Source: Gammaproteobacteria bacterium (GTDB lineage: Bacteria; Pseudomonadota; Gammaproteobacteria; Pseudomonadales; Azotimanducaceae). Taken from it: DNA of 64,000 nucleotides. Made by a program: the position numbers and the translations under genes. Below the pieces are notes generated by a model. The model was given only the letters and a program-made list of their open reading frames with translations, was not told the DNA's origin and made no database searches. The stretch is taken from assembly GCA_026708185.1 (NCBI GenBank), contig JAPOVK010000050.1, positions 62,001 through 126,000 on the forward strand, given 5' to 3'. Positions 40,715 through 46,685 of the stretch are shown in pieces; the stretch's first letter is position 1, and each line of letters opens with the position of its first letter.

Positions 40715-41532
40715 GTCGTCTCGCACCCTACACGGCGGTTGTCAGCGCCCGCTACCGGAACCTGTTGCAGTACCGCGCGGCGGCGTTCGCCGGATTCGTC
40801 ACCCAGCTCTTCTGGGGCTCGATACGACTGATGATCCTCGCGGCGTTCTATGCGGCGGCCGAGGGACCCCAGCCGATGAACATGGTCGAAGTCGTGGCCT
40901 ATGTCTGGCTCGGCCAAGCCCTCCTCGGGATGCTGCCTTGGAACACGGACGCCGACTTCAAGGAACAGGTGACCTCCGGCGCCGTCGCCTACGACCTGCT
41001 GCGACCCTTGGACCTCTACGGTTACTGGTACGCGCGCACATTGGCGTTCCGGACCGCCACGACGACGCTGCGCGCAGTGCCCATGGTGGTCTTCGCCATG
41101 CTGCTGCTGCCGGCGTTCGGCCTTGCCGAGTGGGCGTTGCCGGTCCCGTCGGTAACTGGGCTGATCGGGTTTCTGGCCGCGATCACGGCGGCCGCTCTCT
41201 TGTCCACGGCGATCACGGTGCTTGCCCACATCTCCATGCTGTGGACCCTCTCCGGTGAAGGCGTCGACCGCATCCTGCCCTCGTTCGTGACCATCCTCTC
41301 GGGGATGATCGTGCCGCTGCCCCTGTTTCCCGACTGGATGCAGCCGTTTCTCTCCTGGCAGCCGTTCCGCGGCCTCTGCGATGTCCCGTACCGCATCTAC
41401 AGCGGCAACATTCCCATCACCGAGGCCGCGAACGAGATCGCCTTCACGCTGGCGTGGACGGTGGTGATCGTGTGGTTCGGGCGGTTCCTGCTGTCGCGAG
41501 GTGTGCGCCGCCTCGTCGTCCAGGGAGGCTGA
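40711..41532 (+). CDS. ABC-2 type permease (DUF990-like)
   Basis: 273 aa, six-TM-like hydrophobic profile; 4-bp overlap with the ATPase gene. Confidence 0.88.
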   Translation: MSRLAPYTAVVSARYRNLLQYRAAAFAGFVTQLFWGSIRLMILAAFYAAAEGPQPMNMVEVVAYVWLGQALLGMLPWNTDADFKEQVTSGAVAYDLLRPLDLYGYWYARTLAFRTATTTLRAVPMVVFAMLLLPAFGLAEWALPVPSVTGLIGFLAAITAAALLSTAITVLAHISMLWTLSGEGVDRILPSFVTILSGMIVPLPLFPDWMQPFLSWQPFRGLCDVPYRIYSGNIPITEAANEIAFTLAWTVVIVWFGRFLLSRGVRRLVVQGG

Positions 41533-42394: not shown

Positions 42395-43141
42395 ATGGCC
42401 GCGGACACCTCTGGCTGGTGGGATGCCAGCGACCCGACCGGTCGATCGGTTCGCGAGTTCAGGATTGCCCGGGCCGGCGTGGAGCGACCTGTCACCGGTG
42501 CCCTCTGGTCACCCGCGGATGCTGGCGACGAGGCGCCGCTGGTGCTTTTCGGCCACGGCGCATCGGGGGACCGCTACCAGGCGCCAATCTGCCACCTCGC
42601 ACACCTGTTCGTGGACGAAGCCGGCTGCAACGCGCTCTCTATCGACGGGCCGGTCCACGGCATGCGGCAAGTGGGGCCGGGAGGCCGGGCCGCGTTCGGC
42701 GACGAGATCAAGCGACCGGGGTTCATGGACGACATGGTCGCCGACTGGCATGCCGCGCTCGATGCGACCCGCGCCCAGGCGAGCCCAGGCGACATCGCCT
42801 ACTTCGGCCTGTCCATGGGCTCCATCTTCGGTATACCACTGATCGCCTCGCTGCCGGAAACCAAGGCCGCGGTGCTGGGCCTGCTTGGCACGACCAAGGC
42901 CGGCGGCCTGTTCGCGGAACGCATCTTGAGCGACGCCGCGCGGATACGCTGTCCGGTGCTTTTCCTGATGCAGTTGGAGGACGAGTTGTTCCCGCGCGAC
43001 GGGTATCTGGCGGTGTTCGATGCGCTGGCGAGCGACGACAAGCGCATTCACGCCAACCCGGGCTTGCACCCGGCAGTTCCGGCGGAGGAAATCGCGACGA
43101 GCTTCGCGTTTATCGAACGACTCGTCGGCCGTTCTCGCTAA
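42395..43141 (+). CDS. Alpha/beta (dienelactone) hydrolase family protein
   Basis: 248 aa; APLVLFGHGASGDRYQAPI, DIAYFGLSMGSIFGIPLIASLPETKAAVLGLLG, CPVLFLMQLEDELFPRDGYLAVFDAL. Confidence 0.87.
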   Translation: MAADTSGWWDASDPTGRSVREFRIARAGVERPVTGALWSPADAGDEAPLVLFGHGASGDRYQAPICHLAHLFVDEAGCNALSIDGPVHGMRQVGPGGRAAFGDEIKRPGFMDDMVADWHAALDATRAQASPGDIAYFGLSMGSIFGIPLIASLPETKAAVLGLLGTTKAGGLFAERILSDAARIRCPVLFLMQLEDELFPRDGYLAVFDALASDDKRIHANPGLHPAVPAEEIATSFAFIERLVGRSR

Positions 43142-43246
43142 GGTCGCGGTCAGGTTCCCGTCGGATTGTCCGAGCGGGTGATCCACTCGCTCCAGGAGCC
43201 AGCATAGAGGGCGGGTTCCGGCAAGCCGGCGTGGACCATTGCCAGT
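42930..43246. repeat. Direct repeat copy A (3' end of hydrolase + 3' end of rhodanese gene)
   Basis: Near-identical to 46369-46685 (constant offset 3439 bp; one mismatch seen at 42961 before the right-hand end diverges around 43234). Confidence 0.92.
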
Positions 43247-43250
43247 ATGT

Positions 43251-43373
43251 CCCGACTGGATGCAGCCGTTCCCTTCCTGGCAGCCGTCCGCGGTCTCTGC
43301 GATGTCCCCTACCGCATCGACAGCGGCAACATTCCGTTCGCCGAGGCCGCGAACGAGGTCGCCTTCACGCTGC
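43251..43373 (+). pseudogene. Fragment of ABC-2 permease gene
   Basis: CCCGACTGGATGCAGCCGTTCCCTTCCTGGCAGCCG... closely matches 41329-41451 with substitutions and a 1-nt deletion. Confidence 0.85.
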
Positions 43374-43426
43374 CCTTGGTACTGCCATCCAAGCGGACAA
43401 TAGGAAAGCGCGCCGGGGAGGCAACG

Positions 43427-43786
43427 CTAGGCAAGTTCGGGCGGGTTCGCGCTCGTGCACACGTCGGCAGTGGCTTTCCTCACCCGTGCGACAGCCGAGT
43501 CCATCGCTTCGCGGCGCACGGTCGCTGCGAGCATCGCTCCCCTGTGGGATCCGTTGCTGGCCAGCTTCGCCGTCCGTCCCGCCTCGATCAGTTCCTCTCG
43601 GAGGCGCAACACCGGCTGCCGACCTCTTATGTTCACCGGGATCCCCTCGAACCAACGAGCAATCGCCCGCTCGCTAGTCCCGGCAAGCTCCATCCCCACG
43701 ACTTCGCGGCATCGGTTGACTGCCGACACGATCGCTCGTTCAGCCCGAATCCGTTCGACGAAAGGGTGGTCAGCTTTGCGGGTCAT
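43427..43786 (-). CDS. Hypothetical helical protein
   Basis: MTRKADHPFVERIRAERAIVSAVNRCREVVGMELAGTSERAIARWFEGIPVNIRGRQPVLRLREEL...; 4-bp overlap with the upstream nucleotidyltransferase gene. Confidence 0.6.
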   Translation of the reverse strand: MTRKADHPFVERIRAERAIVSAVNRCREVVGMELAGTSERAIARWFEGIPVNIRGRQPVLRLREELIEAGRTAKLASNGSHRGAMLAATVRREAMDSAVARVRKATADVCTSANPPELA

Positions 43787-44469
43787 CGGCCCCGTGCCTC
43801 CGCGCACTCCAGGCAACCATACAGCCACGCGCGCAAGCCAACAAGCATGGCTGCGACGTCATCAGGCTGCGGTAGCGTGCCCTCGAGCGGCGCTCCACGT
43901 TCGGAGGCTCGACGGCAGGCGCTCAGGCCTTCGTAAGCCAGCCGGCTGAGGGGCAACGTGGGGACGTCGGAGAGTTGCGGCAAGCGTAGAGGGGCCGAGG
44001 GCGAGAAGTCACGACATCCACAGAGGTCACTCATGATGATCCCGGCATTTCGGACCGCCGTCGCGACGACGCCCAGATCGAAGTACGTGGCGCGCCGACA
44101 GGCAAGCGACTCCGCGGCCTCGTCAAACACCGTACACAGCACTTCCAAGTCTTCTGTATGGCGACTGTATGGCGCCATCGCCCGCAACATACCCTGAAGT
44201 CGATTCACAGGCCGACAGACCGGAATCCCCTCGCATCGCAGATGCCACGCGAACAGCGAGCCTTGTTGGACGAGCCTGCCCAACCCCCGGTAACTGTAGT
44301 GAGCGACGTCGACATGCTCGCCGAACCGCGTTGCCAACCATGTCCTCGCCGCTCGCGGGACCGTACGATCCTCGCAAACGACCAACACATCGGTGTCGCT
44401 GCCCTCGTAGGCCTCTCCCCGAGCACGGGAGCCGAACAGCCAGACTTCATTGATCGCATCCGCCGCCAT
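43783..44469 (-). CDS. Nucleotidyltransferase-domain protein (minimal NTase fold + helical C-terminus)
   Basis: MAADAINEVWLFGSRARGEAYEGSDTDVLVVCEDRTV (GSxARG...DxD) and GEHVDVAHY as candidate third carboxylate. Confidence 0.8.
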   Translation of the reverse strand: MAADAINEVWLFGSRARGEAYEGSDTDVLVVCEDRTVPRAARTWLATRFGEHVDVAHYSYRGLGRLVQQGSLFAWHLRCEGIPVCRPVNRLQGMLRAMAPYSRHTEDLEVLCTVFDEAAESLACRRATYFDLGVVATAVRNAGIIMSDLCGCRDFSPSAPLRLPQLSDVPTLPLSRLAYEGLSACRRASERGAPLEGTLPQPDDVAAMLVGLRAWLYGCLECAEARGR

Positions 44470-44477
44470 GTGACCAG

Positions 44478-45344
44478 TCAATCCCTCCGCGTAGAGACCC
44501 GTCGGTGCAAGGACGCGGCCAAGAATGCGATGTAGACAACGCCGATCAGCGACTGTATGGGGGCCCAAACACTCGGTGCCTCGCCCGCGCCTGCCGCCGG
44601 AGCGCTTACGAAGGCAGCGACGCTGAGTCTGAACGCTTCCCAAATGTCGATGGGCTCGTCGCCCAACGCACGCAACAACCCGAGGACCAGAGTCGCCAGC
44701 AGACCATTGACGGTCAAGCGCAACGGTTGCTCGCCATAGCCCCAGAGCAGCTTGTTGAGCAGGCTCTTGAGGTAACGAAACGGAGCGGCCACGCGGGCCA
44801 GGGACACGGAGTACTTGCCCCGATAGTAGTCGTCGCGGCACTTCATGACCGCCACAAAGTGCTCCCGTGATCTCTTCTCTGCTTCGTACAGGAACTGTCG
44901 GGCGTCCTCGTATTCTCCGACGGAGGTCGCGTTGAGGCGGAGCTGAATCAAGATCTCCTGCGCCAGATTGGGCTGCGCCGGCAGGTTGCCCAGCACCGTA
45001 CTCCTTGGAATGTCTGTTCTATCCCACTTCGTATAGCGCAGATCGCAGTCCTGGATGGCACTGGATCGGAAGTTGCAGCCGATGAACCTGCAACCCGTGA
45101 AGTTGCACCCCCTAAAGCGAGCTCCCCGGAAGTAGCAGTTCACGAAGGTCGAGTACGAAAAGTCACACTTCGCCACGTTCGCCTGCAGTAGCGAGACATC
45201 TGTCCAGACCGACCGCTGGACTACCCGCCCGGACATTTCCATGCCCTTGGGGGTCTCGTTTGCGATGAGTGCATCGCTCTCAGCGATACCATCGATGTCT
45301 GCTAGGGAACCGTGCGACTTCCCGATGGACAGATAGTCACTCAT
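44478..45344 (-). CDS. Pentapeptide-repeat protein with C-terminal two-TM (ion-channel-like) region
   Basis: CDFSYSTFVNCYFRGARFRGCNFTGCRFIGCNFRSSAIQDCDLRYTKW pentapeptides; LWGYGEQPLRLTVNGLLATLVLGLLRAL ... APIQSLIGVVYIAFLAASLHRR. Confidence 0.8.
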   Translation of the reverse strand: MSDYLSIGKSHGSLADIDGIAESDALIANETPKGMEMSGRVVQRSVWTDVSLLQANVAKCDFSYSTFVNCYFRGARFRGCNFTGCRFIGCNFRSSAIQDCDLRYTKWDRTDIPRSTVLGNLPAQPNLAQEILIQLRLNATSVGEYEDARQFLYEAEKRSREHFVAVMKCRDDYYRGKYSVSLARVAAPFRYLKSLLNKLLWGYGEQPLRLTVNGLLATLVLGLLRALGDEPIDIWEAFRLSVAAFVSAPAAGAGEAPSVWAPIQSLIGVVYIAFLAASLHRRVSTRRD

Positions 45345-45599
45345 ACATCTCCCCCGCGCTGGTCACGGGCTTGCTGGCCAAGCCGTCTCGGCGGCCTGTG
45401 TGGCCTGAACTAGCGTACTCATGCCGATATCTTCGAATGGCCCTGTCCCGCCTCGCCGCCGCGCCTCCGATGGGAACGCCGAGGCTTACATCTGGCCGAT
45501 CCGGTGCATTGGAGCATTGTAAGCTCTGCGTTGCCCGGCATGTCTGTACGAGCGTGGGCATGAGGTTGGTCTCGTCGATCGACGCCAAATGCCGCCTGC

Positions 45600-46300
45600 C
45601 GTGCGCTGGGCCGGAACGGTCTCGCGGTCTTTTCTCGTCTACGTGGGTGCGACGCCGGGTCTCCTCGTTGGGGCATTCGAGCATGTTGGTGCCCTTGAGG
45701 TGCCTGGGGTGCCGCCGGGGTAGGCGGCAGAACGTCCAGGTCGGCGCGCGCCTCGTCGACGTCGCGGCGGTCGCAGAGCCAGCGCAGCTCCCGCAGGCAG
45801 TCGTCGTCGGCCTCTCGGCGTGTGGTCGAGGGCGTTCCTGAGGAAGTGGACGTAGCAGCGCTTCAGGCTGCTTCGCTGAGCACCTCGCGTCTCGCCCTGG
45901 TCAGCCCCGTCGTCGTCGCTGACGAACACCTCGACGCCGTGTAAAGCCGCTCGCGGAGCCCAGAGAGGAACGCCTTCCCGCTGCTGCGGCTCTCGCGGCC
46001 GGCGAGTTGGACGCCGAGGATGTGTCGGCGGCCGTCCCAGGCGACGCCGATGGCAATCACCACCGCCTGCGAGCGGATGGCGCCATTGTGTCGCGCACCT
46101 TCTCGTAGCCAGCGTCGAGGATGAGATACGGCATCGGCTCGTCGAGCTAGCGCTCGGCGAAGGCCGTGAGCATCTTTGTCGAGGCGCTTGTTGATCCGCA
46201 AGATGGTCGACGCCGAGGCGCTGTGGCCGCACAGTTCGTCGGTAATAGCCTTGACCTTTCTTGTAGTCTCCGACGCCGTCCCCGAAGCGCTGGAGGCCAC
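45600..46300 (-). pseudogene. Degenerate IS256/Mutator-family transposase
   Basis: Frameshifted pieces: TRKVKAITDELCGHSASASTILRINKRLDK, PYLILDAGYEKVRDN, GAIRSQAVVIAIGVAWDGRRHILGVQLAGRESRSSGKAFLSGLRERLYT, KRCYVHFLRNALDHTPR, GTNMLECPNEETRRRTHV, in different frames with stops. Confidence 0.88.
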
Positions 46301-46580
46301 GCGCTCGCCATCGACGGGCCGGTCCACGGCATGCGGCAAGTGGGGGCCGGGTGGCCGGGCCGCGTTCGGCGACGCCGCGCGGATACGCTGTCCGGTGCTC
46401 TTCCTGATGCAGTTGGAGGACGAGTTGTTCCCGCGCGACGGGTATCTGGCGGTGTTCGATGCGCTGGCGAGCGACGACAAGCGCATTCACGCCAACCCGG
46501 GCTTGCACCCGGCAGTTCCGGCGGAGGAAATCGCGACGAGCTTCGCGTTTATCGAACGACTCGTCGGCCGTTCTCGCTAA
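46295..46580 (+). pseudogene. Internally deleted duplicate of the alpha/beta hydrolase gene
   Basis: IDGPVHGMRQVG segment (as 42640-42700) joined directly to DAARIRCPVLFLMQLEDELFPRDGYLAVFDAL... (as 42935-43141). Confidence 0.85.
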
Positions 46581-46685
46581 GGTCGCGGTCAGGTTCCCGT
46601 CGGATTGTCCGAGCGGGTGATCCACTCGCTCCAGGAGCCAGCATAGAGGGCGGGTTCCGGCAAGCCGGCGTGCACCATGGCCAGC
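46369..46685. repeat. Direct repeat copy B
   Basis: Near-identical to 42930-43246 at offset 3439. Confidence 0.92.

Follow-up and report, generated by a model that had tools for sequence, protein, structure and literature searches.

The analysed stretch of DNA (64,000 nucleotides, hereafter the window) carries three genes, here named A, B, and C, inside a short inserted segment (Table 1). An earlier note on this DNA had described three near-contiguous genes on one strand with a 4-bp overlap between the last two, and the coordinates and intact reading frames confirmed this arrangement: A and B are separated by 8 bp, and B and C share the overlap ATGA. The start of each gene is preceded by a purine-rich stretch resembling a ribosome-binding site. 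A promoter scan found none, and the single terminator-like match was within chance.

Table 1. Coordinates of the A-B-C unit and the surrounding features in the window.
Feature	Position	Strand	Description
Gene A	44478-45344	minus	HalA-like effector, 288 aa, intact ORF
Gene B	43783-44469	minus	HalB-like nucleotidyltransferase, 228 aa, intact ORF
Gene C	43427-43786	minus	third component, 119 aa, six helices, intact ORF
Direct repeat, left copy	42930-43229	+	300 bp; 3' ends of hydrolase and rhodanese genes; single copy in G151
Direct repeat, right copy	46369-46668	+	300 bp, 100% identical to left copy
Inserted segment carrying A-B-C	43230-46368		absent from congener G151, flanks match at 89%
ABC permease-like fragment	43240-43372	+	85-92% similar to ABC permease gene at 41318-41451; within inserted segment
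Decayed Mutator-family (IS256-type) transposase	45863-46486	minus	upstream of A; PF00872, E = 4e-18

The identical repeat copies at both ends agreed with the repeat-bounded island proposed earlier. In the congener G151 the site is empty, with the hydrolase and rhodanese genes contiguous and the repeat stretch present once, which makes the insertion in the window genome clear. Since the other window genes that were checked (a TonB receptor, a TPR protein, the rhodanese, and the hydrolase) were ordinary, the three genes appear to move as a small insert of their own and not in a large island. Diverged copies of neighbouring host genes were seen within the inserted segment (43240-43372 and 46289-46374), and the segment looks as if DNA of a related strain had been integrated and rearranged. 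The transposase debris at 45747-46258 matched at least 17 near-identical places in a second congener, G171 (C1 and C2); judged by sequence, this genome has undergone an IS expansion.

The product of gene A was read in the earlier note as pentapeptide repeats followed by a two-transmembrane (TM) segment, and both parts were recovered, the former as a Pfam match (PF13576, E = 1e-15) and the latter as hydrophobic segments at residues 210-228 and 259-277. The AlphaFold (AF2) model of A (pLDDT 84) showed a pentapeptide beta-helix (25-108), a helical domain (114-201), TM1 (207-226), a pore-helix-like element (234-245), and TM2 (260-286). Among 350,542 PDB chains, its best fold match was oligodeoxyadenylate-bound HalA (9nyi; E = 5e-10, the next match being at 3e-5), with 301 alignment columns and a modest TM-score of 0.45. 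Against the NCBIfam HalA model, which matched all 11 relatives scanned, A scored 32 bits, far below the curated cut-off of 250. A search of A for HEPN families gave one sub-threshold match (PF18733, E = 0.03). As modelled, A combines the pentapeptide/crown region and the two-TM channel domain of a HalA-type effector, at a score under the curated cut-off. The TxGYG selectivity filter, the criterion for a selective K+ channel, was absent from A; the string SVAAFVSAPAAGAGEAP stands in its place, as had been noted before. This filter is also missing from the canonical HalA loci L053 and L086, so its absence is no oddity of the window locus. A GYG or GFG filter is kept in the relatives L050, L009, and L054.

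Gene B encodes a nucleotidyltransferase (NTase) in which the motifs reported earlier, GSRARG...SDTDVLVV and VDVAHY, were found. The signature reads G13S14...D25xD27 with D54 as third carboxylate, and D25, D27, and D54 are all intact; the solved HalB has a glutamate at the aligned third position, and the third carboxylate varies among relatives. B scored 45.9 bits against the NCBIfam HalB model, far below the curated cut-off of 190, and the same model matched the NTases of all 16 three-gene loci described below. A profile of 16 relatives matched the HalB crystal structures in the PDB over residues 4-162 (E = 4e-17), and alignment of the three-gene NTase set with nine canonical HalB-type sequences in hhalign gave 99.3% (E = 7e-21). 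The C-terminal ~60 residues of B did not align with HalB. By these comparisons, B has the core of a HalB-type nucleotidyltransferase, its score not reaching the curated cut-off. In a phylogenetic tree, the 16 three-gene NTases fell into a clade of their own (support 86/83), apart from the canonical HalB clade (100/99).

In the Hailong study, the C-terminal tyrosine of HalB is said to prime DNA synthesis. Protein priming by tyrosine has been documented for DRT9 (PMC12483538). A tyrosine within the last two residues was present in 9/9 canonical HalB-type proteins (encoded beside HalA in L053 and L086, and beside WYL or other partners elsewhere) vs. 0/16 three-gene NTases, a contrast that does not amount to 25 independent observations, since each trait may go back to one event in evolution. 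The B protein of the window has no C-terminal tyrosine, its last tyrosine lying 12 residues from the end; in the closest relative (L095) a tyrosine is third from the end and in L050 fifth. Both a tail tyrosine and a C gene are missing from the two-gene relatives L009 and L054, so the tyrosine and C do not form a strict either/or.

The third component had been described as a small helical protein of no known family, and this description held: C was modelled by AF2 as all-helical, with a mean pLDDT of 86, and had no Pfam or PHROG match. It had no significant PDB sequence match and no significant PDB fold match, the fold search giving insignificant helical-bundle matches. Proteins of this family are helical, ~100-140 aa long, and present in every member of the three-gene clade. 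An HMM built without the window protein retrieved the window C at E = 3e-8; among 300 shuffles and about 2,700 background ORFs the best value was 0.13. There are two C subfamilies, the second comprising L007, L008, L043, and L044, which are joined weakly by sequence (E of about 0.06-0.1) and mainly by position and a shared R/S pattern; the C of L050 was assigned by position only. The only residues invariant in 16/16 C proteins are R17 and S80, the placement of S80 being unsure in the divergent C of Priestia. In the AF2 model, S80 lies in a predicted loop between helices 57-77 and 88-113. The C gene was absent from the canonical HalB loci. The possibility that C is fused to the long NTases in L009 and L054 was considered on account of a short likeness (GLETIWRWV) and rejected, as neither HMM nor hhalign supported it.

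The earlier note had proposed looking for conserved linkage of the three genes elsewhere, and this was found. The order A-B-C occurred in the window and in 15 other loci (16/16) from four phyla, with all three genes complete in 13 of the 16, and the trio is therefore more than a chance neighbourhood. The other loci belong to the congener G156 (L007/L041), to G039 (L008/L042), G411 (L013), G1245 (L094), G1039 (L095), and G1134 (L096, where A is cut by the contig end), to a Nitrospira MAG (L043) and a Nocardioides (L044), and to plasmids of Rhizobium (two), Pseudomonas (pGLE121P1), Priestia, Janthinobacterium, Salinivibrio, and Piscirickettsia. The genes were adjacent in every locus, mostly with start-stop overlaps, and the distances of A, B, and C co-varied (Mantel r 0.80-0.90, p = 1e-4). 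The C profile, run over 399 genomes of the phylum, gave full-length matches only in the two carrying A and B. When A alone served as protein query, six plasmids were returned, each of them matched by B as well. Several C genes lacked an annotation in the gene tables shown; those on the two Rhizobium plasmids (L045:4162-4500 and L046:4162-4539) and the NTase gene on the Janthinobacterium plasmid (L087:2995-3618) were missing, the plasmid table being stated as incomplete.

Defence genes were present in three of the wider neighbourhoods: HsdM with a GmrSD/Schlafen protein and an integrase (L041), the Lamassu protein LmuA (L045), and AbiEii (G411). None, or none that was clear, was found around L042, L043, G1245, and L044, the scan with the defence library covering the first three of these. 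No phage relatives were retrieved by tblastn, and none came from viral contigs in four scans. In the Salinivibrio locus (L048:1361-3055) an IS4-family element splits A in two, and in the Piscirickettsia locus (L047:2243-3495) A is truncated beside an IS30-family element; B and C are intact in both. Disruption of A by insertion sequences with B and C left intact is what a toxic role of A would predict.

As A is of the HalA type and B of the HalB type, the unit is Hailong-like and not an MNT/HEPN system, the family to which the earlier note had turned. MNT/HEPN was rejected as the nearest family since neither B nor C had a HEPN family match, the HalB matches were stronger and longer, and A resembles HalA. 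For the broader reading, an NTase-controlled membrane effector module, there is good support. The label 'uncharacterised' held only in part, the HalA/HalB portion being already named in NCBIfam. With Hailong the unit shares a pentapeptide and two-TM effector directly followed by a HalB-type NTase, the retained catalytic residues, and the occurrence in defence contexts and on plasmids. It differs from the two-gene Hailong operon in its third gene, in the NTase (no C-terminal tyrosine, an unalignable C-terminal end, and a separate clade), and in the shorter effector (288 aa vs. 328-410 aa in the canonical L086 and L053). With its separate clade, missing terminal tyrosine, and third gene, the unit is, as far as its sequences tell, a distinct sister branch of Hailong and not canonical Hailong. 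In the titles and abstracts of the openly accessible papers searched, no three-gene Hailong or pentapeptide-NTase defence unit was recognised.

The L009 and L054 pairs (L009:901-2699, L054:1093-2860) form a third Hailong-like branch. Like the window unit they couple a pentapeptide/two-TM effector to a HalB-like NTase lacking the terminal tyrosine, but they have no third gene, their NTase is ~300 aa (about 70 aa longer), and the GYG/GFG filter is kept. The MntA/HepT type VII toxin-antitoxin system shares the GSxxRG...SDxD nucleotidyltransferase core, whereas the unit has no HEPN partner by family search and its effector is membrane-bound and HalA-like. If the inhibitory logic proposed below holds, the unit would also resemble Panoptes (mCpol/2TM-beta), in which a membrane effector is held inactive by a nucleotide product (PMC12657230). 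Panoptes was set apart by description, its Cas10-like cyclase and the effector families named in that paper being different.

According to papers citing the Hailong work, the single-stranded (oligo)deoxyadenylate synthesised by HalB represses HalA, and phage exonucleases release HalA (PMC12657230, PMC12265719, PMC13275509). By homology, A-B-C is probably an anti-phage unit that is mobile and belongs to a sister branch of Hailong, its product, inhibitory logic, trigger, and pore being modelled on that system. B would polymerise nucleotide into a short oligonucleotide. A would bind this product through its cytoplasmic part, made up of the pentapeptide domain and the helical domain, so that a tetrameric two-TM pore is kept shut. 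Once a phage nuclease or some other activity removed the product, A would be released and would then depolarise the membrane and stop growth of the infected cell. C would act as a required partner of B in the three-gene branch. We regard this explanation as a whole, a Hailong-like guard in which an oligonucleotide keeps the channel shut and C partners B, as probable.

The part of C within such a guard is a matter of conjecture. Because the branch without a terminal tyrosine gains C with its invariant loop serine, we propose that C serves as a primer or acceptor in trans, a tentative suggestion that is more likely wrong than right. In its preferred form, the hydroxyl of S80 would be the start point for synthesis by B, replacing the C-terminal tyrosine of canonical HalB. 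Synthesis would thus have moved from the terminal tyrosine of HalB to a serine of C, a miniature terminal protein, and the guard signal would be a protein-linked oligonucleotide made in trans; this more specific scheme we consider rather doubtful. Alternatively, C may be a helix-turn-helix (HTH)-like regulator, a protein antitoxin, or a scaffold.

An unlikely alternative places C outside the nucleotide chemistry altogether, as a DNA-binding autoregulator or as a protein antitoxin of A. C contains an HTH-like motif (L-x-G-L-S-x-x-A-I-x-x-W) and has weak sequence matches to phage repressors (E of 0.4-0.9) and to a terminase small subunit. However, these matches are all insignificant, the fold matches listed are helical bundles and not HTH proteins, the isoelectric points of C proteins range from 4.9 to 10.9, and the most conserved positions include the loop serine outside the HTH-like motif. 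The single invariant serine in that loop would also suit a type VII toxin-antitoxin logic, in which B adenylylates a protein (A, or S80 of C) in the way that MntA modifies a HEPN toxin, and the modification, with no free or tethered oligonucleotide, silences A or C. Consistent with this, the MntA model matched 9/16 three-gene NTases and the window NTase at E = 9e-7. The stronger and longer HalB matches, the HalA-like effector, and the lack of a HEPN family match for C argue against it, and it seems quite improbable.

The direction of control could also be reversed. CBASS membrane effectors are opened by NTase products, and B might accordingly stay silent until infection and its product then open A. 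No result favours activation over inhibition. HalA/HalB, the closest pair with solved structures, is inhibitory in its logic (PMC12657230, PMC12265719, PMC13275509), and A was lost to insertion sequences with B intact, with no intact A beside a broken B seen in a search run mostly by B. Activation of this kind is very unlikely. The direct-repeat boundaries and the adjoining transposase debris would fit an inactive passenger of a decaying mobile segment, but all three ORFs are intact with their conserved motifs in register, and we give this explanation hardly any credence. The guard in which an oligonucleotide keeps the channel shut remains the preferred reading.

On this preferred reading, Hailong would no longer be a two-gene system alone but a family that includes a second branch of wide phylogenetic range, which the curated models miss at their cut-offs. 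The branch raises the question of how a HalB enzyme starts synthesis without the priming tyrosine, which is testable in vitro because B and C are both small and soluble. A primer acting in trans, if real, would connect an immune guard with terminal-protein chemistry as known from phage and viral replication.

HalB-type NTases ending in a C-terminal tyrosine were also observed with other partners. On Agrobacterium, Bradyrhizobium, and Rhizobium plasmids they immediately follow a WYL-domain gene, and HalA is absent (L081:2068-3702, L083:2025-3690, L084:2056-3687, L051, and L052), and in L051 and L052 a patatin-like ORF, identified by eye, is nearby. On small Klebsiella and Yersinia ruckeri plasmids they follow a gene of ~100 aa (L085:1855-2799, with a DUF1883 annotation, and L082:2650-3669), a different partner for the same enzyme.
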